Origin: a virus
Direction: 5' to 3' (one strand)
DNA: 46,813 bases
IMG/VR virus record: IMGVR_UViG_3300042564_002349
Coordinates: 1 to 46,813 of that record
Shown in pieces: positions 4,546 through 23,866 of the stretch (the stretch's first letter is position 1; every line of letters starts with the position of its first letter). The position numbers were made by a program, and so were the translations under genes. The notes under the pieces were generated by a model. The model was not told the origin of the DNA and searched no databases. It was given only the letters and a program-made list of their open reading frames with translations.

Positions 4546-6468
4546 TTAGCATCCAAAACAACTATTTAATGCAACTAATCCAATTATGTAGTTTTGTGAA
4601 CCGTTTGATGCTGGGTTTACGTCCATAATCCAAGCATCGGTTATGATTTCATAATTTTGTAAAGCTGGTCCATTTACAGTACTAGCACAAAAATAACCAT
4701 TAAGTATTGTTATAGTATGCGCGGTATCAGTACCTAAATCACCAATTATTCTCACATCAACGGTAACATTTGTGTTCACCGAAACATCGGAATTTACTTG
4801 TACCGTTGTACTATTATTACCACCAGCCATTACACAAGCACTAATTACAACATCTGTTGCGTTTGGATTACACTCAATACATCCAACTGGTGGTGTTGAG
4901 TAATATTCACAACCGTATCCACAGTTGTAATAACCTAGATAAGCTGTTGTTGTTGGTGTAGGTGTTGGCGTTGACGTTAAGGTTAACGTTGGCGTATTAG
5001 TAGGTGTTGATGTTAACGTAGGTGTGTTTGTCGCTGTTAATGTAGGTGTACTTGTTGATGTTTGTGTAGGCGTGTTTGTTGCGGTTAATGTAGGTGTGTT
5101 TGTTGATGTTTGTGTTGGTGTGTTAGTAGGCGTTGATGTTAACGTAGGTGTATTAGTTGCAGTTAATGTAGGTGTACTTGTTGCAGTTAATGTTGGTGTA
5201 TTAGTTGCGGTTAATGTAGGTGTACTTGTTGCAGTTAATGTTGGTGTCGGAGTTGGTGTAGGTGTGTTAACAACATATTGAATTGCGAAATTACAGTCAA
5301 TAGTTGGTGTATTAGTAGGTGTACTAGTTAAAGTTTGTGTTGGTGTGTTAGTAGGTGTTGATGTTAATGTAGGCGTGTTTGTCAACGTTAACGTAGGTGT
5401 ATTAGTTGATGTTAATGTTGGTGTATTAGTTGCAGTTAATGTAGGTGTACTAGTTAAAGTTTGAGTAGGTGTATTAGTATTAGTAGGTGTTAATGTTGGT
5501 GTAGCTGTTAAAGTTTGTGTCGGAGTTGGTGTAGGTGTGTTAACAACATATTGAATTGCGAAATTACAGTCAATAGTTGGTGTATTAGTAGGTGTACTAG
5601 TTAAAGTTAATGTTGGTGTGTTTGTTGGTGTTTCCGTAGGTGTTAACGTAGGTGTTAGCGTAGGTGTTAATGTTGGTGTATTAGTTGCGGTTAATGTAGG
5701 TGTGTTTGTAGGTGTGTTTGTTGGTGTTTCCGTAGGTGTACTTGTCAACGTTAATGTAGGTGTATTCGTAGGTGTTAACGTTGGTGTCGGAGTTGGTGTT
5801 GGTGTTGCAGTATTAACAACGTATTGAATTGCAAAATTACAATCAATAGTTGGGGTATTAGTAGGTGTGCTTGTCAACGTTAATGTAGGCGTATTCGTAG
5901 GTGTTTCAGTCGGGGTTAACGTAGGTGTTTCAGTAGGTGTTGATGTTGGCGTCTCTGTAGGTGTGCTTGTCAACGTTAATGTAGGCGTATTCGTAGGTGT
6001 TAATGTAGGTGTAGGTGTAGGTGTTGGTGTTGCAGTATTAACAACGTATTGAATGCTAAAGTCACAATCAATTGTTGCTGTAGGTGTTAACGTAGGTGTG
6101 TTTGTCGGTGTTTCTGTTAATGTAGGTGTAGGTGTCGCTGTCGGTGTTTCTGTTAATGTTGGTGTAGGTGTTGCTGTTGGGGTCTCTGTAGGTGTATTAG
6201 TTGGTGTTTGTGTTGGGATTGGTGTAGGTAAAATATAAGTAATGTCCGAATTACAACTATCGTTATATAAAATTATTGTTGTAATAGAATCTGGCATCGA
6301 CACTAAAACTCCTGGACTAGTCGTTAAATCACTATATGATAAATTCGTAGCAGGATTACTATTTGAAAATAAAGTTGCAATATTAGAAACATTTACACTA
6401 TCATAATATACCGTATACGGTCCTTGTGAAGTGCCTCCTGTTATTAATATGTGATATTTTTTTGCCAT
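4546..6468 (-). CDS. Thr-Pro stalk protein with four cysteine modules
   Basis: A 640-residue protein. Residues 1-80 are the N-terminal domain shared by the local paralogues ([20 protein letters not shown]). Residues about 80-507 are a Thr-Pro stalk ([15 protein letters not shown] type) interrupted by four copies of a short module of the pattern DC(D/N)F(S/A)IQYVVNT. Residues about 508-640 form a Cys-rich C-terminal domain ([14 protein letters not shown], ending in NSCFGC). The same modules occur in the adjacent 6482-13198 protein, and at DNA level two copies here are identical over 92 bases, so recombination between repeats is likely. The stalk plus terminal domain suggests a fibre projecting from the tail tip (inference). 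The gene lies 13 bases after 6482-13198, with no terminator between them. Confidence 0.85.
5244..5335 (-). repeat. 92-base exact direct repeat, copy 1
   Basis: Identical to 5517-5608. It spans one cysteine module and the flanking Thr-Pro units. Copies start 273 bases apart, exactly 91 codons, so recombination between them would keep the frame and remove one stalk module. Confidence 0.85.
5517..5608 (-). repeat. 92-base exact direct repeat, copy 2
   Basis: Identical to 5244-5335; see that entry. The retained identity contrasts with the drift between other modules and suggests a recent duplication. Confidence 0.85.
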
Positions 6469-6481
6469 TTTTTATTCTATA

Positions 6482-9400
6482 TTAAGGACATATGTTTTGT
6501 ATTGCTGTTATTATGTTTGCCCCACTAAATCCACTATATGTTGCACCATTTGTACCAGTTGCCAAGTCATATAATACGTTATTAGGTGCCGTTGTCATTA
6601 ATAACACTTTAATATTTTGATTATACAATGGTGTTATTAAACTATTAACATATGTAACATCGGTAGCACTGTAAGCGTCATCGTCACCACCTGGTTGAGC
6701 GTCTGTAATTAAAATTATTAATTTAGATACATTACTTCTAAATGTGCCGGCAAAATATTCATACCCCGATTTATCACTTGTTGCAACTAAATCAACACCC
6801 ATATCACTAGGTTCGGGAGAACCTCCCCCAGAACCAATACTAAATGTTCCATTGTTTATTTTATTTAATTGAGTAGTAAATGACGAAATATTATTTGTAC
6901 TCATTTTTTCCATTGCAGTAATTACTTGTTTTCTATTTGCTACGGAATTTATATTAATATATTTTTGACCACTAGGTAATGATGAATAACCTGAATCATT
7001 ATTGTAGTTTGGATTACTGCTCGCACCATATTCATCAAAAATAACCAATCCTAATCTGTAATTATTATTAGATTCTGTTTGAATTGTACTTGCAATTGAT
7101 GCAATTGATGATTTAACTCCATTAATAGCGCTACCCATACTTCCTGTATAATCAACTAAGAATACCACATCCATACCTGAAGAACACGGTGCACCTTCAC
7201 CTGGTGTTTCATCAATCATTTCAGTGAATGATGCCTCAAATGTACAATCTAATGTAGGCGTTGGGGTAGACGTTAATGTTAATGTAGGTGTATTAGTTGG
7301 TGTTGCAGTTAATGTTGGTGTTAACGTTTGAGTTGATGTAGGCGTAGGTGTTGGGTCGTTAACAATATATTGAATCGCGAAATCACAATCAATTGTTGGC
7401 GTAGGCGTTAGTGTCGGAGTGTTAGTTGGTGTTTCAGTAGGTGTCTCTGTTGGCGTTAACGTAGGAGTACTAGTTGGTGTTTCAGTCGGTGTCTCTGTTG
7501 GAGTTAACGTTGGTGTATTAGTTGGTGTAGATGTTGGAGTCGGTGTTGGGGTATTAACAATTACATTAAAATCAAAAGTACAATCAACAGTTACTGTAGG
7601 TGTATTAGTTGGGGTTAATGTAGGTGTTTCAGTAGGTGTTGATGTTGGCGTCTCTGTAGGTGTATTAGTCGGTGTTTCTGTTAATGTTGGTGTAGGTGTA
7701 GGTGTTGGGTCATTAACAATATATTGTATACTAAAGTCACAATCAACAGTCGGTGTAGGTGTTAACGTTGGCGTATTAGTAGGTGTCTCTGTTGGTGTCT
7801 CTGTTGGTGTCTCTGTTGGTGTGTTAGTTGGCGTTTCAGTCGGTGTCTCTGTTGGAGTTAACGTTGGTGTATTAGTTGGGGTGCTAGTTGGTGTAGGTGT
7901 TGGTGTGTTAACAATTACATCGAAATCAAAAGCACAATCTACAGTAGCCGTTGGGGTTAACGTAGGTGTATTTGTTGGAGTTTCAGTTAAAGTTGGTGTA
8001 GGTGTAGGCGTTGGTGTATTAACAACGTATTGAATTGCGAAATCACAATCAACAGTCGGTGTTGGTGTTAATGTAGGTGTCTCTGTCGGTGTTAATGTAG
8101 GCGTCTCTGTCGGTGTTAATGTAGGCGTCTCTGTCGGTGTTAATGTAGGTGTCTCTGTTGGTGTTAAAGTCGGAGTATTGGTCGGAGTGCTAGTTGGTGT
8201 TTCAGTTGGTGTTAACGTTGGAGTATTAGTTGGGGTGCTAGTCGGTGTAGGTGTTGGTGTGTTAACAATTACATCAAAATCAAAATTACAATCAACGGTT
8301 GCCGTTGGAGTATTAGTTGGGGTTTGTGTAGGTGTTGTTGTTAAGGTTTGTGTAGGTGTTGGTGTTGGAGTATTTACAACATATTGAATACTAAAGTCAC
8401 ACTCAATTGTTGCCGTAGGTGTTAACGTAGGTGTTTGAGTTGGTGTCTCTGTAGGTGTACTAGTCAACGTTAATGTTGGGGTATTCGTAGGCGTTTCTGT
8501 TAACGTCGGAGTTTGAGTTAAAGTTTGAGTTGGTGTAGGCGTTGGTGTATTAACAACGTATTGAATTGCGAAATCACAATCAACAGTCGCTGTTGGTGTT
8601 AATGTTGGGGTATTGGTTGGTGTAGACGTTAACGTTAACGTAGGCGTATTAGTTGGTGTTAATGTTTGTGTTGATGTAGGTGTTGGTGTTGGAGTATTTA
8701 CAACATATTGAATACTAAAATCACACTCAATTGTTGCCGTAGGTGTTTGTGTAGCGGTTAAGGTTAACGTTGGTGTATTTGTTGGTGTTAAAGTTGGTGT
8801 TAAAGTAGGTGTAGACGTTGGTGTAGACGTTAACGTTAACGTAGGCGTATTAGTTGGTGTACTAGTTACAGTTTGTGTTGGTGTATTTGTAACACCTAGT
8901 GTAGGTGTATTAGTTGGTGTACTAGTTGGTGTGCTAGTTAAAGTTTGAGTAGGCGTACTTGTTGGTGTACTTGTTGGCGTCTTTGTTGGTGTTACCGTAG
9001 GTGTTAATGTAGGTGTAGGTGTAGGTGTTCTTGTTTGTGCAACATACACTTCACCACATTCAACAACTGGTGTGTTATCACAATCCTCAATACCCATTTC
9101 TCTAGGGAAATAGTTTGTGTTAGAACCATTTACATATAATTGTTCTAAATCAAAGTTTAATGAAACAAATTTATTTTGTGTGAATGATAATAAGATTTGT
9201 TTGTTATTGTCACCATTAAAAAGAACCACATCACCTGTACCGTTCCAGTTCAAGTGATAGAATATACTTCTTGAGCAATAATCTAATTCAACAGTTTCAA
9301 CTTCAATTGGGAAACCAAGCTGATCTAATAACATATCCCCAGCGTATCCGTCATAATATGATGCATTAACATCACAACAAGGTTCTTCTGGTGGTGTTTC

Positions 9401-12400
9401 TTTTAATAATAAATCTTCTGGAAACGCACTTGTGAAATTACCATCACGCAAAATTCTTAATTCTGTTGTTGGTAAAACTTCAAATTGGTTGTTAATTAAA
9501 TGCTTCTTAACTGAACCCAAACAATCTTTATTTGTTATTTGAATTAGTTTATATGTAAAACTAAATGAGTATCCATTTGTTGCTGCGTTTCTAAAATCTG
9601 TTGTGGCAAATGGGCATGGATTAAAATCTGCGGATAATATATAATCACCAATGTTTACGTTTTCAATTGTTGTTTCAATTAAAGCACCAGAAGTAATCGC
9701 AGCATCAACAATCGCTTTAGTTGATACGTTTACAGTGCTACCAGTTGCTTTTAAAACAATTGACCCGTGCTTAATACCATAATTAAATGTTTCACGATAT
9801 TGAACTTTAGGTTGTATTGTATAACCAGTGTAGTTGTCACAAAAAGTAACACCTGACATTGTTGATAAAACTAAAGCGTCTTTTGTACCAATTAACTCAA
9901 AGAATTGTGTATGTGATCTACCATATCCTAGTGGATATGGATCGTGCTCTACTTTAAGTTGTAGACCTTCAATTTTTATTTTTTGTTCGCAGTTTGCTGC
10001 GTCTGTAAATAATAATTCAATTGGATTACCATCAATATCCCCATCTTCGTAAACGTCTGGTATGATAAACATACATGGCTCACCAATAATTTGTTGAATT
10101 TCTAAACCACTAATATTCTCGTTGAAATTCTCGGCATTTTCTCCGCAATCATAAAATATGTTAACCGGCCAAGAAGTTACATCGTCTTGATTTCTAGTGG
10201 CTCCGCTAATTGTAATGTAAACATCACTTTTAAGTCGACAATCTTCGGTACCTTCTTCATATATGTCGCAAGGTGTTGAAACATAAACTTGCATGCATGG
10301 TGGCTCTTCATATAAAAATTCTGAAGAGAAGAAGAAATCAATTTGTTTTGTACAAACACCATCAGCGTTTTTTTGTGAAAAGAATTTAACTTTTTCAATA
10401 CCGTCAGTGTCAACAAAAAACTCATGAGATAATATTGGTAAATCAACATTACATGTTGCTCCTGATGTAATTGCACTATATGGTATATAATCAGTTATAC
10501 ATCCTGCACTATCTCTTGTGTGTGTTGTATTAATCTGGTCAATTAAATCTGATAAAGCATTTTTCCAAGAAACTTTTATGGTCGAAATATCTAAACCAAT
10601 CCATTCTTTAAAGTCACAAATAAGTGGAGCATAAGATGTTCCAGACACAAATGAAGTGCAACCAGTTTTTGGTGTGAATTGATCAAATAGTGTGGTACCG
10701 GTTAAATTAACTTTAGTGTCTCCAGTATATTCTACCCCGTCAACGTCAACAATTAAATGGTATGTTACCCCCGTAAGTTTTAATAAACCTCTTAAATTTG
10801 ATTCAGTACCGATTAAAGTTTCTAAATCCTCTTCAATAGCTGTTTCAAATTCAGGATATAAATTATCAACAAACTCTGTTGGTGTACATGGTTTAACGTA
10901 TTGATATTTTGGTCTACCGAAAACATTATTCTCTGTTAAGTTACCACCTAGCCATAAAGTTGTTGCTGGAATAATTTGATTTAAGATGTTAGGCCAATAA
11001 GGACCCATCTTGTCAACAAATTCGTAAACACTAACAAAATCGTATGATGTAAAACCAGAATGTGAAATGTATTCACGATAGATTTCTTCTAATGCGATGT
11101 AATTCTTTTTGTATTTTATTACATGAGAATTTCTAATATGATTTTTTAATACGTTATCAAGATACTCAGCAAAACTAATCTCGGTTTGAACATCTAGTGT
11201 GCCAAAAGATAATGTTAAGTTTTGTGATTTTCTCCAAATATCATAATCAATTGCTTTTGAAGATGATACGAAAACGTTTATATTTTTTCTATTTAATATT
11301 AAATTAGTTGAATCTAAATCGTCAACTATTTGTCCTTTAACATTATCAATACTACTTCTTAATTCATAACCGTAATCTAATCCTGGTAATGTTCTATAAT
11401 AATTGTAGAAGTCCTCACCATATGTGAATTCTCTAGATTTGGTTTTTAATGTTTTAGTTCTACCCGTTGTAATTGAATTAGCTTCATCTAAAACATCATA
11501 TGATCTGTGGTCTAATGTTTCCTCATACCAACCAGAACCCATTTGAAAGAACACGTTCTCATCATTTGTTGTTGGTGATATTGGTAACCCAGTATTTTCA
11601 TCAACAGGGAAATCGGTTCTAGAACTAAATGATGTTGATGCCGTTTCTTCAACAATGTCATATGTGTAACCAGTAGTGTTAAAGGTTAACGTTTTATTGA
11701 CTTTGTTGCCTTGCATAACATCAAAGATATCTTGCTCAATTGTTGAACTAGGTAAACTTGATTCAACGTTATAAACGAACTCATCAATTTTTACCATTTG
11801 TGGTGGTGCACCTATAAACCTTAAAAAGAAATCTAAACTACTTCTAGTACCTTTAGATTTATAGATATGTGCTAGGTTAACAACAATTCTTCTATAAAAT
11901 TCAAGTTCTGCTTCAACTAAGTTTTTACCTATTGAAACCCCGTCGTATGTTTGAATTGAAGCGTTATATATTTGATCTTGTAATGTTTTCTCATCAAACA
12001 TATTAATTGTATTAAAACCTAACGTGTTTGCTAAGTTTTTTAAGAATACATCTGGTATGTTATTGATGGTATCATAACTAACATTACGCATGTATGCAAT
12101 GTTGTCAATATATTTTTTAACCTTATCAAAATTTTGACCATATAATTGGAAAATTTTATTGGTTTTTTGGTCATCTGTATCAAATTCAAATAATTGTGGT
12201 GATGATAGAAATCTAATTATTAAATCAGATTTGTACTCATCTACCTCAATCGCAATTGAGTTAACAGTGTCAATATAGTTTTGGTATTCTAAACCAACAA
12301 TTCTAATATTCCAACCGTCTTTAGATACTGGCCAATTAACTTCAACTGGAATAATTTCGGTTTTTGTTCCGCCGGAAGTATCTCTAGGTATTTGAAACGT

Positions 12401-13198
12401 TGTCTTATATATTGGTAGTGTTTCTCTATTTAAAATTGTTTGTTCTAAATCGTCTAACCCTATATAAAACTCTTCGACAACGCCATTATTTGGGCGAATT
12501 AAATATGAACTTGTATATGTTGAACCAGTAAATGGCTTACCAATAACTTCGAACCCAACAACATTATTAACATCTGGCTCCGTATATTTTGTTACAGTAT
12601 AAGTTGTGTTGTTAACATCAACGGCATATTTTTTATATGCTGAATATAAATTTCTTATACTATTTGTTGTTTCTCCAGTAACAACAACTGTCGGTTCAAC
12701 TAAAACAACATCTAATGGATTATACATTAATGATGTTTGTAATGTAAACGTAGTTCTATTTGTGATTATATTGTAAACAATATTTTCAGCGGTGTTTTTG
12801 TTAACACCAACAGGTGATGTACTATCTGCTAAAAGTGCTGCTGGGAAATTATTAATAATCCTAGCTGTTGAAACTCTAAATCTTTCTCTTAATGAACCAT
12901 ATAATGATTTTCCGGCATCTGCTTTAGAATCATTAAATTTGATTGGTCTTTTTTCACCTGTTGACTGTGTAACAGTTGTTGGTGATTCTGTTTCAATTTT
13001 TAAATCTTCTAATGTTAAAAAATCTGAAAACGGCGCAGTTTTAAACGATTTTGAATCTTTTTCTGGTATGATTTTATCTAAAGCAAAATTGGTATTGGTC
13101 AATTGACTAGTTCCATCGGTAATTTGACTACCGATAATACTGTCGGAAAATGTTTGATTTCCGCTCGTTGCTTGACTTGGTACCTTATATTTTGCCAT
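6482..13198 (-). CDS. giant baseplate/tail protein with Thr-Pro stalk and C-terminal vWA domain
   Basis: A 2238-residue protein in three parts. Residues 1 to about 800 look like a baseplate/tail protein: the segment around residues 440-465 ([20 protein letters not shown]) matches the KGT-x-x-A/S-L pattern of P2 gpI-type tail proteins. Residues about 800-1390 are beta-rich with scattered Cys. Residues about 1390-1983 are a Thr-Pro stalk carrying nine modules, six of type CDFxIQY(V/I)VN and three of type CxFDF(D/N)VIVN. Residues about 2005-2237 are a von Willebrand factor A domain: MIDAS residues D2016, T2018 and S2020 (VDYTGSMGS), then [11 protein letters not shown] and LITDAQPGG with D2166. 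Cys2005 and Cys2237 flank the domain and could form a disulfide. vWA domains usually bind protein ligands through a metal ion, so a host-surface contact is a reasonable inference. Its ATG overlaps the preceding stop (TAATG). Confidence 0.85.
7250..9030 (-). repeat. degenerate Thr-Pro-coding repeat tract with nine modules
   Basis: About 1.8 kb of imperfect 12/24-base units encoding T-x-T-P, with nine interrupting cysteine modules. In protein order these are IQY, IQY, IQY, VIV, IQY, VIV, IQY, VIV, IQY, then a final variant (CTFEASF) that leads into the vWA domain. Boundaries are approximate. The same tract family occurs in the next gene. Confidence 0.85.
8069..8164 (-). repeat. four near-identical 24-base tandem units
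   Basis: Units 8069-8092, 8093-8116, 8117-8140 and 8141-8164. The middle two are identical and the outer two differ by one or two bases. Each encodes eight residues of the TPTLTPTE type. This is the most homogeneous part of the stalk and thus the youngest expansion. Confidence 0.85.
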
Positions 13199-15042: not shown

Positions 15043-15801
15043 TTATTCTGGTATTTCATAAAAATTTATTGGTGTTGTTCTTAAACCCTTTCTAGATCCA
15101 GTTGAACCATCATACTCATAAATAACATATGAATGATTTGTCATATCTGTTTGCACTTCATAATACAAGTCATCATCTTGATTTAATTCTGATCCAATAA
15201 TATTTTTATTGGAAAAACTTAAAATTGAACCATCCTCAGCATTAAAAAATCTAGCTGAAATGTAAAAAGTGTCACCAGAATAAACGGAATTATCTTGGAA
15301 CCAAAAGAAGTACATGTTTTCACTATTCCTGTAATTGTTACCAGTAAAAACTGGAACATGGATATAGTCACCTAAAGAGGTATAGAATACTTTTTGACCT
15401 AATGGTAATGATAATGTTTTGGCAAATATTAATTTTTGTGTTTCCTTTTTTGGTGTGCTATAAAATTCTATTCTGAAGAAACTCTTAACAGTATGTGCTA
15501 ATAACATAGCATTCTCTTCTGGAGATATACCAACTAGATTATAATCTAAACCATTTGAATACCCATTATTAGCGTCTAAAAAATAAAAGTAAAACCAAAT
15601 ATCGCTTTGATTGATTCCTGAATTTAAATATGGTTCATGTATGTATCTGGTCGTTTCGTAGTTATCAACTTGATTGATAATTTTTTTCATCGTTTCTTTT
15701 TCATAACTAGCAAAGTTTTCTTCCCAACCAGCATTAGTTTTGAAATCAACGGATTGTGGAATGTTTAAATAAAAATCATCAGTTGTTTTTAAAATTTTCA
15801 T
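15043..15801 (-). CDS. virion structural protein, unknown
   Basis: A 252-residue protein, MKILKTTDDFYLNIPQS, rich in aromatic residues (runs such as IWFYFYFLD and YFFWFQD) and without recognisable motifs, signal peptide or coiled coil. The ATG at 15801 overlaps the stop of 15801-17546, and its own stop abuts the next ATG at 15042, so the three genes are translationally linked. Baseplate or fibre-attachment role is inferred from position alone. Confidence 0.7.
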   Translation of the reverse strand: MKILKTTDDFYLNIPQSVDFKTNAGWEENFASYEKETMKKIINQVDNYETTRYIHEPYLNSGINQSDIWFYFYFLDANNGYSNGLDYNLVGISPEENAMLLAHTVKSFFRIEFYSTPKKETQKLIFAKTLSLPLGQKVFYTSLGDYIHVPVFTGNNYRNSENMYFFWFQDNSVYSGDTFYISARFFNAEDGSILSFSNKNIIGSELNQDDDLYYEVQTDMTNHSYVIYEYDGSTGSRKGLRTTPINFYEIPE

Positions 15802-21478: not shown

Positions 21479-23308
21479 TTAGTATGTAGTGGAACCTAAG
21501 GTTTTAACTCTTATTTTAATATCTTTATTTGGAAATCTGATTTGAAATATCTGATTTGCTTTCATATATATGGTTGAATCAGATTGTACAATTTCTTTTG
21601 TTATAGGATTTGACTCTTGAGCAACCTGTGCTGTTGAATATTCTCCACCAATTTTATTAAAAACTCTAATACTGACCACGTTGACAATACCAGAAATATC
21701 ATTGATTTCTTTTTGCAAATCACCCACAAATAATGGGTCTCCCATCTTACGTTTGTCGATTGAGAAATAAGCTGTTATTTTAGTAATCGCTTCTCTTAAT
21801 AAATCTGCTTGGTTTTGGTTTTTATCAACCACCAAATCGATTTCTAAACCCATATCAATAACCTCACCACTAACAATATCCAAATAGTCGTTAATCATTC
21901 TATATTCCGACAAGTAATTTAAAATATTGTTTTTTAGGGTGTTAGAAACTGTATCACTTAAGTTACCATTCTCATCATATGATAATAACTTAATTCTCAC
22001 TCTGTTGTTTTCTTCCATTACATTAACTTTGGCCGGAGCCCCGAATGTTGATGGCATATTTTCAATCAATGATTTATAGTCATTAAGCGTAACTGCTCTG
22101 TTTTGTGCTGCGAAATTATATGCAACCATATTTCTTAATTCCTCAACAGTTGGTTGATCCGCCCCACCCACAGCCGGTGTTACGTTTGTAACTTGTAATG
22201 ATTGAGATACTTGGTTATTTATAGAACTTAAAGGACCCGTCATCACAAAATCAACATTTTCTACCGTTGTTAAAACACCAACCCCTAGATTACTTTCCTT
22301 ACCACCACCAATCCTATATTTTACAAATAAGGTTGTGTTTGCTTTAGGAATTGTACCCATTGACATATTATTTAGATATGTTCCTAGGTTAACCTTTAAA
22401 TTACTTGTAATATAGTTGTCCAAATTATCTAATGGATCAACATTACCTGAACCAAATGTTAATGAGAAATAACCTTCTGGTGTATATTCTGTAATAAATT
22501 TATTTGAAACCTTAACATTTGTACCTGCAACAAAATTCTTTTTGTCAGAAGTGCTTGTAGGGTCTTTAATGAATACTTTATCTTGTATTAGTGTTTTAAC
22601 CTCATACCATTTATTTGTTGAACTAATAAATTCAGAAGCATTTGGATTAGCACCGAAAGACGTTCCTTCTTTATGTATAATTGAAGTAACTCCTAGAACA
22701 TTTTTTTCAGGTAAATAGAGTTTTAAGAATGGTTTTTGGTCTCTTTGCGTGATTGCTCTTCTAAAAATTTTAGTAACACCATTAACAACAGCTTCTCTTT
22801 TTGTAATCGTATATGAAATCAATTTATTATTGGCATCAGAATTTGGTATTTTTAATCTGTTTGGTTCTCCTCTGTCATTAAATGGGTTAGAAAAATCAAT
22901 ATCAGAAATTGTTTCAAATATTTGACCACCCCCAGACACTTGAGCGCCAGCTCTTAAGATACCTTCGTATCTTTCATCATCCTTATCACCTCTAACTGGT
23001 ACATTAATACTAAAATCACATAATGAAACGGCCGGTCTTTGACCTGGAACCCTAATTCCGTATGTTTTTGCTATATGAAATAATGATTGTTTTTGTTGAG
23101 CAAAGTCCAGCATAGTTTCTTGCCAAACCCTATCTATATGGTAATGTAAGTTATCCGCAACAGCGGCATTTAAATCCAATGACACCGAAAATATTGATGC
23201 GTCATTTGTATTTTTAATTAATTCGGGATAGTAATCTTTTGTTAAATTAACTAACTCTTCTCTAATTCCCGCGAAATCTCTATTCGTGTACGATATTTTT
23301 TTACTCAT
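21479..23308 (-). CDS. 6: baseplate wedge protein, T4 gp6-like / baseplate J family
   Basis: A 609-residue protein. The N-terminus (YTNRDFAGIREELVNLTKDY, then PELIKNTNDAS) and the following helical region (AAVADNLHYHIDRVWQETML) are the pattern seen at the start of gp6-like wedge proteins. A later segment (VEELRNMVAYNFAAQNRAVT, then DYKSLIENMP) matches the middle of the baseplate J/gp6 family. In T4, gp6 forms the inner iris of the baseplate wedge together with gp25 and gp53. The gene follows the gp25-like gene by one base, the same gp25-gp6 partnership seen in contractile-tail systems. Length is close to T4 gp6 (about 660). Confidence 0.85.
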   Translation of the reverse strand: MSKKISYTNRDFAGIREELVNLTKDYYPELIKNTNDASIFSVSLDLNAAVADNLHYHIDRVWQETMLDFAQQKQSLFHIAKTYGIRVPGQRPAVSLCDFSINVPVRGDKDDERYEGILRAGAQVSGGGQIFETISDIDFSNPFNDRGEPNRLKIPNSDANNKLISYTITKREAVVNGVTKIFRRAITQRDQKPFLKLYLPEKNVLGVTSIIHKEGTSFGANPNASEFISSTNKWYEVKTLIQDKVFIKDPTSTSDKKNFVAGTNVKVSNKFITEYTPEGYFSLTFGSGNVDPLDNLDNYITSNLKVNLGTYLNNMSMGTIPKANTTLFVKYRIGGGKESNLGVGVLTTVENVDFVMTGPLSSINNQVSQSLQVTNVTPAVGGADQPTVEELRNMVAYNFAAQNRAVTLNDYKSLIENMPSTFGAPAKVNVMEENNRVRIKLLSYDENGNLSDTVSNTLKNNILNYLSEYRMINDYLDIVSGEVIDMGLEIDLVVDKNQNQADLLREAITKITAYFSIDKRKMGDPLFVGDLQKEINDISGIVNVVSIRVFNKIGGEYSTAQVAQESNPITKEIVQSDSTIYMKANQIFQIRFPNKDIKIRVKTLGSTTY

Positions 23309-23309
23309 C

Positions 23310-23762
23310 TTATATGTTAATAATTATAAAATCACTTGAACCAAATGCCCCATTATTTACTGTATAATCAATTCTTACTTTTGCTGTATAAGGTTTGTTT
23401 GATGAATCAGATGTTCTAAATAATCGACTATCTTCATCTTCACTAACACTAACCTGTTCATCTGGATCATTTTCAGCGTTAACAACCTTTATTGAATTTA
23501 TATCTAAATTTGGAATGTATTTTTTTACCGATTCTCTTATTTCGTCTTCAATATGGTTAAAGGTGATAACATCATTTTGGTCAAAAATATATTCATAAAT
23601 TCTAGTACCAAAATCAGGTAAAAAATATCTAGTACCCCTCTTTGTTAATATAAGGTGTATTAGATTCGCTCTAATCTCTTGCTCGGGGGTTTTTGTCATT
23701 CTAACAAAGTCACCGACCATACTATCCCTAAATGGGAAATCTATACCATAGGATGTTGCCAT
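23310..23762 (-). CDS. 25: baseplate wedge protein, T4 gp25-like
   Basis: A 150-residue protein if started at the ATG at 23762. It shows the gp25 pattern: YGIDFPFRDS near the start, then TPEQEIRANLIHLILTKRGT, FLPDFGTRIYEYIFD, and a final strand pair (KVRIDYTVNNGAF). gp25-like proteins are the conserved wedge core of contractile tails. The frame stays open upstream to an ATG at 23858, but that extension would translate straight through the nrdA terminator hairpin and give an untypical basic/hydrophobic leader, so the internal start is preferred. The chosen ATG also has the recurring TATTTAT box four bases upstream. It is the first gene of the baseplate unit and is followed one base later by the gp6-like gene. 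Confidence 0.85.
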   Translation of the reverse strand: MATSYGIDFPFRDSMVGDFVRMTKTPEQEIRANLIHLILTKRGTRYFLPDFGTRIYEYIFDQNDVITFNHIEDEIRESVKKYIPNLDINSIKVVNAENDPDEQVSVSEDEDSRLFRTSDSSNKPYTAKVRIDYTVNNGAFGSSDFIIINI

Positions 23763-23766
23763 ACCA

Positions 23767-23773
23767 ATAAATA
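23767..23773 (-). promoter_or_regulatory. TATTTAT box upstream of the gp25-like gene
   Basis: The coding strand reads TATATTTATTGGT before the ATG at 23762. It lies after the nrdA terminator, where the baseplate unit needs a promoter of its own. A second ATTTATT sits right behind the terminator. Candidate only. Confidence 0.35.
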
Positions 23774-23799
23774 TAAAGAATACCGAAATGGTAATAAAT

Positions 23800-23835
23800 A
23801 AAAAATCGCGACACTTTATTAAAAAATGTCGCGAT
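23800..23835 (-). terminator. intrinsic terminator after nrdA
   Basis: A perfect 9-base stem, ATCGCGACA (23805-23813) against TGTCGCGAT (23827-23835), with a 13-base loop. On the minus-strand transcript it is followed at once by six U residues. It lies 31 bases past the nrdA stop and separates the replication/nucleotide unit from the baseplate unit. Confidence 0.9.
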
Positions 23836-23866
23836 AATTGTGACTTTTTAGGTGCCACCCATTATA

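Follow-up and report, generated by a model that had tools for sequence, protein, structure and literature searches.

The DNA analysed here, called the window in the following, is a virus record of 46,813 bases with its genes on the minus strand. It encodes a gp25-like and a gp6/Baseplate_J-like wedge protein, NrdA and NrdB, a DnaB-type helicase, a 5'-3' exonuclease, a UvsX-like recombinase, and a gp32-like protein, and by this set of wedge, NrdA/NrdB, replication, and recombination genes the record is identified as a fragment of a T4-like myovirus. The gene of interest, gene A, encodes one long protein in which a core, a Thr-Pro stalk, and a von Willebrand A (vWA) domain follow each other (Table 1). 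The length of the protein and the residue numbers which an earlier note on this DNA had given for the gpI-like motif region, the stalk, the vWA domain, and the MIDAS positions were found to be correct upon translation and alignment. Following gene A, gene B (4546-6468) and the stretches 1633-2775 and 3-1319 hold further short-head genes with Thr-Pro stretches and differing tips, and this region looks as if it were an array of stalked proteins. A 252-aa protein encoded at 15043-15801 resembles by eye a group of heads (head cluster 5) to which, in other phages, Thr-Pro stalks are attached, with nine tip clusters among eleven open reading frames.

Table 1. Features in and around gene A (positions in the window; numbers of amino acids refer to the gene A protein)
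Feature	Position	Strand	Basis
Gene A, 2238-aa core-stalk-vWA protein, ATG start	6482..13198	-	open reading frame and translation
Probable baseplate-wedge core, residues 1-1384	9047..13198	-	alignment of relatives, HMM matches
KGT motif region, residues 449-463	11810..11854	-	K449, G450, T451 invariant in 64/64 rows
Thr-Pro stalk, residues 1385-1989, tandem-repeat DNA	7232..9046	-	
vWA domain, residues 2005-2237, Cys at both bounds	6488..7186	-	Pfam, fold comparison, 32-row alignment
MIDAS D2016-x-T2018-x-S2020	7139..7153	-	32/32 rows; in search pattern, so partly circular
MIDAS D2166	6701..6703	-	32/32 rows; outside search patterns
E2129 of P-E-P, possible further ligand (putative role)	6812..6814	-	31/32 rows
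Block replaced in L005, L013, and L014: gene A tip, gap, gene B head	6220..7260		approximate borders (in repeats)
Gene B: short head, Thr-Pro stalk, Cys-rich tip	4546..6468	-	
gp6/Baseplate_J-like wedge protein	21479..23308	-	
gp25-like wedge protein	23310..23858	-	

The core belongs to a wide family covering approximately its first 800 residues. A first search for core relatives yielded 51 loci from 69 stretches, and in a wider one at least 537 of 598 stretches were confirmed, the best 80 of which were kept. An alignment of 64 rows combined the window with 63 relatives that remained after dereplication at 90% and included one from the same species; the invariant KGT motif ended one of the two patterns (KSKGT) used in a search for core relatives. 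Run against the open reading frames of four stretches, the profile of this alignment matched a 1404-aa frame of LR756508 (E 3.2e-7) and ORF 161 of Flavobacterium phage immuto (E 1.8e-5). Both lie shortly after gp6, separated from it by about 1.5 kb in LR756508 and by two genes in immuto; in the window five genes lie between the gp6/J gene and the core gene. The KGT motif is present in P2 gpI, and T4 gp7 has KGI. Comparison by hhalign with single-sequence templates gave no significant match, neither to T4 gp7 (E 0.34, aligned at the KG motif of gp7) nor to P2 gpI (E 0.44, not aligned at the motif). Likewise, no match of the core to annotated phages was found by tblastn, a PDB sequence search with the core profile gave 0 hits, and when 12 core rows were scanned against PHROGs and Pfam the matches were scattered and weak (best E 0.076 and 0.12). 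The structure model of the core is too poor for use (pLDDT 37). Judged from the KGT motif and the occurrence of relatives shortly after gp6, the core probably belongs to the wedge proteins of the gp7/gpI type, an assignment which we infer because the direct matches to T4 gp7 and P2 gpI were not significant. The label P2 gpI-like used in the earlier note draws on a short motif and on gene position, the direct comparison to gpI and gp7 being not significant. We know of no counterpart of the gene A stalk and tip in T4 gp7 or P2 gpI.

The stalk comprises 605 amino acids, 61% of which are threonine or proline, with 117 TP dipeptides. The succession of core, stalk, and vWA was found on four contigs, i.e., the window, L038 (identical to L002), L003, and L059. 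L038 is a second contig of the same species, 99.6% identical over 17.6 kb and with the same join; L003 and L059 are diverged contigs, again with the same join, and on all three the reading frame is open through core, stalk, and tip. That a separate vWA gene had been connected to the core by an assembly error, a concern raised by the repetitive stalk DNA and by the contigs of five close relatives which break inside the stalk (L006, L007, L008, L009, and L011), is largely refuted and highly improbable in view of the same join in open frames on L038 and on the diverged L003 and L059. The core-stalk-vWA architecture is real and conserved, in support of the earlier proposal that a probable baseplate core is joined through a Thr-Pro stalk to a vWA domain.

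The excised terminal domain matched the Pfam family VWA (PF00092) with 26.8 bits (E 6.8e-6) as compared to a cut-off of 23.8, and within the full-length gene A protein the match scored 16.9 bits, which is under this cut-off. The domain was aligned with a selected part of the relatives found by profile scans, and a VWA match at E<=0.01 was obtained in 29 of the 32 rows, the row of the window counted. Cysteine 2005, aspartate 2016, threonine 2018, serine 2020, asparagine 2103, and aspartate 2166 are invariant in this alignment; since the loop-1 motif was contained in a search pattern its invariance is partly built in, which is not the case for aspartate 2166 and the cysteines. Cysteine 2237 is kept in all 20 rows reaching that column, the other 12 rows being cut where their match ends, before the column. 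An AlphaFold2 model calculated from a three-row alignment has low confidence (pLDDT 64). In fold comparison it gave Z scores of 13.1-14.6 over 155-183 residues among the 50 matches listed, which included the vWA domains of integrin beta (beta-I), CMG2/ANTXR2, TRAP, and BatB, with best named values of 14.6 for integrin beta and 14.2 for the CMG2 vWA domain. Sequence searches were negative, with 0 hits for the vWA profile in the PDB, no tblastn match of the domain to annotated phages, and matches of only E 0.7 or worse to annotated phages for the vWA domain of L004. The domain is a genuine vWA domain with intact MIDAS positions, so that neither the absence of a Rossmann-like fold nor a scrambled MIDAS, both named in the earlier note as possible outcomes, was found. 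The likeness to the vWA/integrin I domains of integrin beta, ANTXR2, and TRAP consists of the fold, as seen in a low-confidence model, and of the MIDAS positions, whereas gene A encodes a phage protein and has a P-E-P at the place of a possible fourth ligand. This P-E-P with glutamate 2129 may be comparable to the PEG motif of integrin beta chains. The A1 and A3 domains of von Willebrand factor have a cysteine at both domain ends, as does the vWA domain of gene A, in which both edge cysteines noticed earlier could clamp the domain.

Scans with a three-row vWA profile confirmed 50 viral loci from 81 stretches and seven genome loci from 102 stretches, and all seven genome loci are from Bacteroidota. 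Six of them (L104-L109) show, by eye, a signal-peptide-like start and a lipobox-like cysteine; the remaining one, L103, consists of a larger open frame located on a contig of 4.6 kb. In the three loci checked an OmpA-family gene precedes the vWA gene, the lipoprotein-like vWA gene following directly after it (L104:3978-6768, L107:3877-6732, and L108:4023-6702). The lipoprotein-like vWA proteins of Bacteroidota (Niabella, Sinomicrobium, Sphingobacteriaceae, and Ferruginibacter) belong to the same domain family with 41-42% identity to the query, but are short (frames of 280-347 amino acids from stop to stop) and have no stalk. The GC content of the window is 33%, and none of its 27 genes has GGAG, GAGG, or AGGA within 20 bases upstream; absence of such upstream motifs is usual in Bacteroidota. 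The nearest matches of gp6 are LR756508 and the Flavobacterium immuto phages (201 bits for the Flavobacterium phage), with a phage of the cyanobacterium Microcystis nearly equal (197 bits). Because of the homologous vWA domains in lipoprotein-like proteins of Bacteroidota the host is perhaps a member of this phylum, a likely assignment which is weakened by the almost equally good match to gp6 of the Microcystis phage.

Three further contigs of the window's species, L005, L013, and L014, have 99.59% of the core DNA in common with the window. The window and L005 are 99.71% identical over 1380 head residues, and their tips give no BLAST hit to each other; L013 and L014 resemble L005 in having the unrelated tip on a near-identical core. 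From about 6220 to 7260 no 16-mers are common to the window and L005, with common 16-mers present on both sides, and the same two regions are also missing in L013 and L014. Both ends of the swapped block lie in stalk repeats, one in gene A and the other in gene B; between the two forms, the heads of gene B show 49% identity over 81 residues. L038 has the tip (749 bases) and the gene-B head (229 bases) of the window, both at 100%. Compared to the window, the upstream genes are 99.88% identical in L038 and 99.2% in L005, and the core has 52 mismatches in L038 and 17 in L005. The closer core of L005 had been considered as a sign of tip transfer; this argument was dropped, as a single 500-base bin holds 47 of the differences between window and L038. 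These genomes are mosaics, and the core mismatches do not allow the tip to be described as discordant with the remainder. For the tip of L005 no Pfam family was matched, and in a pattern scan it was confined to L005, L013, and L014. At a head identity of 98% or more, 16 of 22 contig pairs have the same tip and six do not. All six consist of the window or L038 paired with L005, L013, or L014 and therefore represent one event, fast swapping having been seen once and in no species other than this one. At 85-95% head identity (13 pairs) there was no tip match in ten, a partial match in three, and the same tip in none.

The 126 core open reading frames, with some contigs counted twice, included 90 with a 3' end, and 59 of these 90 have a stalk of 50 residues or more; other core frames stop after roughly 800-825 or 1400 amino acids without stalk or tip. 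Core, stalk, and tip together were found in 50 frames, which upon dereplication at 95% of the head left 34 proteins with 25 tip clusters. A true vWA domain, as recounted with the profile, is present on three of these 34 (the species of window and L038, L003, and L059). A fourth member of the vWA tip cluster, L120, has no vWA domain, and tip cluster 1 was rejected as a pure vWA cluster, as it mixes true vWA domains with Thr-Pro remnants (L120, L121, L004|10706, and L004|13717). Two or more tips occur in ten of 21 head clusters and two or more heads in 11 of 53 tip clusters; like the 25 tip clusters among 34 proteins, these are sample counts from single-linkage clusters and not rates, the loci having been fetched for holding the core or the vWA domain. 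One tip with the motif DDSGSM (210-219 amino acids, 72-80% identity) is found on three heads, namely, the core (L114), a gene-B-type head (L115), and a third one (L120/L121). It was considered as a second vWA domain but not confirmed; the L114 tip has no Pfam match, and three DDSGSM tips compared to the vWA alignment by hhalign gave E 0.18, with 0.14-0.42 for six control tips. The vWA domain itself also occurs on another structural-type head (L004 and L075) and in other architectures. By this comparison of sequences the vWA tip is one of many interchangeable modules on the core.

We propose, with a probability of roughly 0.6, that gene A encodes a baseplate protein with a metal-dependent host-adhesion tip which is part of a modular adhesin repertoire. 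The protein would be located in the baseplate of the T4-like phage, the C-terminus of its core being extended into the long Thr-Pro stalk, which would hold the vWA domain off the baseplate, and the vWA domain may grip a ligand on the host surface through a metal ion. The swap of the tip among close relatives suggests an exchangeable grip for host attachment. Recombination in the repeat DNA of neighbouring stalk genes would be the likely route of exchange, supported by the borders lying within repeats in one species. Stalks A and B have 83 20-mers in common as compared to 10-54 in ten synonymous shuffles, and their longest exact match of 44 bases slightly exceeds the 22-41 bases seen in ten codon shuffles; the similarity of the stalk DNA is therefore modestly above what the two proteins demand. 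A module border in the linker is, however, expected from selection alone, which counts against such a reading of the repeats. A farther-reaching version, in which repeat DNA common to neighbouring baseplate and fibre genes serves as recombination arms moving cassettes of a tip and the next head between phages and genes, tips like the vWA domain derive from surface lipoproteins of the hosts, and receptors are switched without retroelement or invertase, is possible but less probable.

The vWA domain might instead bind a target other than a host receptor, such as mucus, polysaccharide, particles, or other cells, and keep the phage near its hosts. Long stalks and several tips per genome would suit weak capture, as would the PKD-like, weakly fn3-like, and collagen-repeat parts carried by relatives; the baseplate core, if it truly is one, points to the host-facing end, and we consider this alternative unlikely. 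It is quite unlikely that the domain has a structural or assembly function such as fibre-fibre contact or capping of the tip, without host binding. Many non-adhesive complexes use vWA domains, the fold matches include Rpn10 and TFIIH subunits (Z 13.1-14.1), and in L061 and L075 the vWA domain lies inside longer phage proteins rather than at the end, but replacement by an unrelated tip on a 99.71% identical head would be unusual for an assembly part.

If the proposed host-adhesion tip is correct, an integrin-like adhesion fold stands at the end of a probable baseplate stalk in a wide T4-like metagenomic lineage. Modular receptor-binding proteins of phages are known; unusual here are the fold of the tip, the stalk, and the base. 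Adhesins of T4-type tail fibres (gp37/gp38) are exchanged by recombination, and like gene A they combine a constant base with a tip that varies between nearly identical phages; in contrast, gene A carries its tip behind a Thr-Pro stalk on what is probably a baseplate protein, and not on the long tail fibre. With the core constant in the natural swap within one species, any attachment difference between both forms could be attributed to the tip, and should tips prove to determine the host, metagenomic phage contigs could reveal receptor preference.

In the literature searched, with preprints and most subscription papers outside its scope, there was no description of a baseplate protein carrying a vWA domain on a Thr-Pro stalk. 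Tentaclins are likewise putative phage adhesins with variable recognition domains, but have N-terminal C-type lectin and Ig domains and are varied by a retroelement, and the abstract names no vWA domain (PMC10743442). Other papers mention a cobaltochelatase subunit with a vWA domain (PMC8651126), a putative vWA protein in one table together with a VWA protein count of 1 in a table of retrieved proteins (PMC10892097), two vWA annotations in a genome table (PMC8504454), and PF00092 counted among the toxin domains of extracellular injection systems (PMC8213781).

Two further arrangements of the domain were seen in phage proteins. L061:8777-15523 encodes a protein of 2248 amino acids with collagen-type repeats and a domain of the vWA family at residues 409-641, followed by about 1600 residues. 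In a family with frames of 734-763 amino acids (L066-L073, L077, and L084-L092) the vWA domain lies near the C-terminus, and the one member scanned, L066, gave a weak fn3 match (E 0.009).
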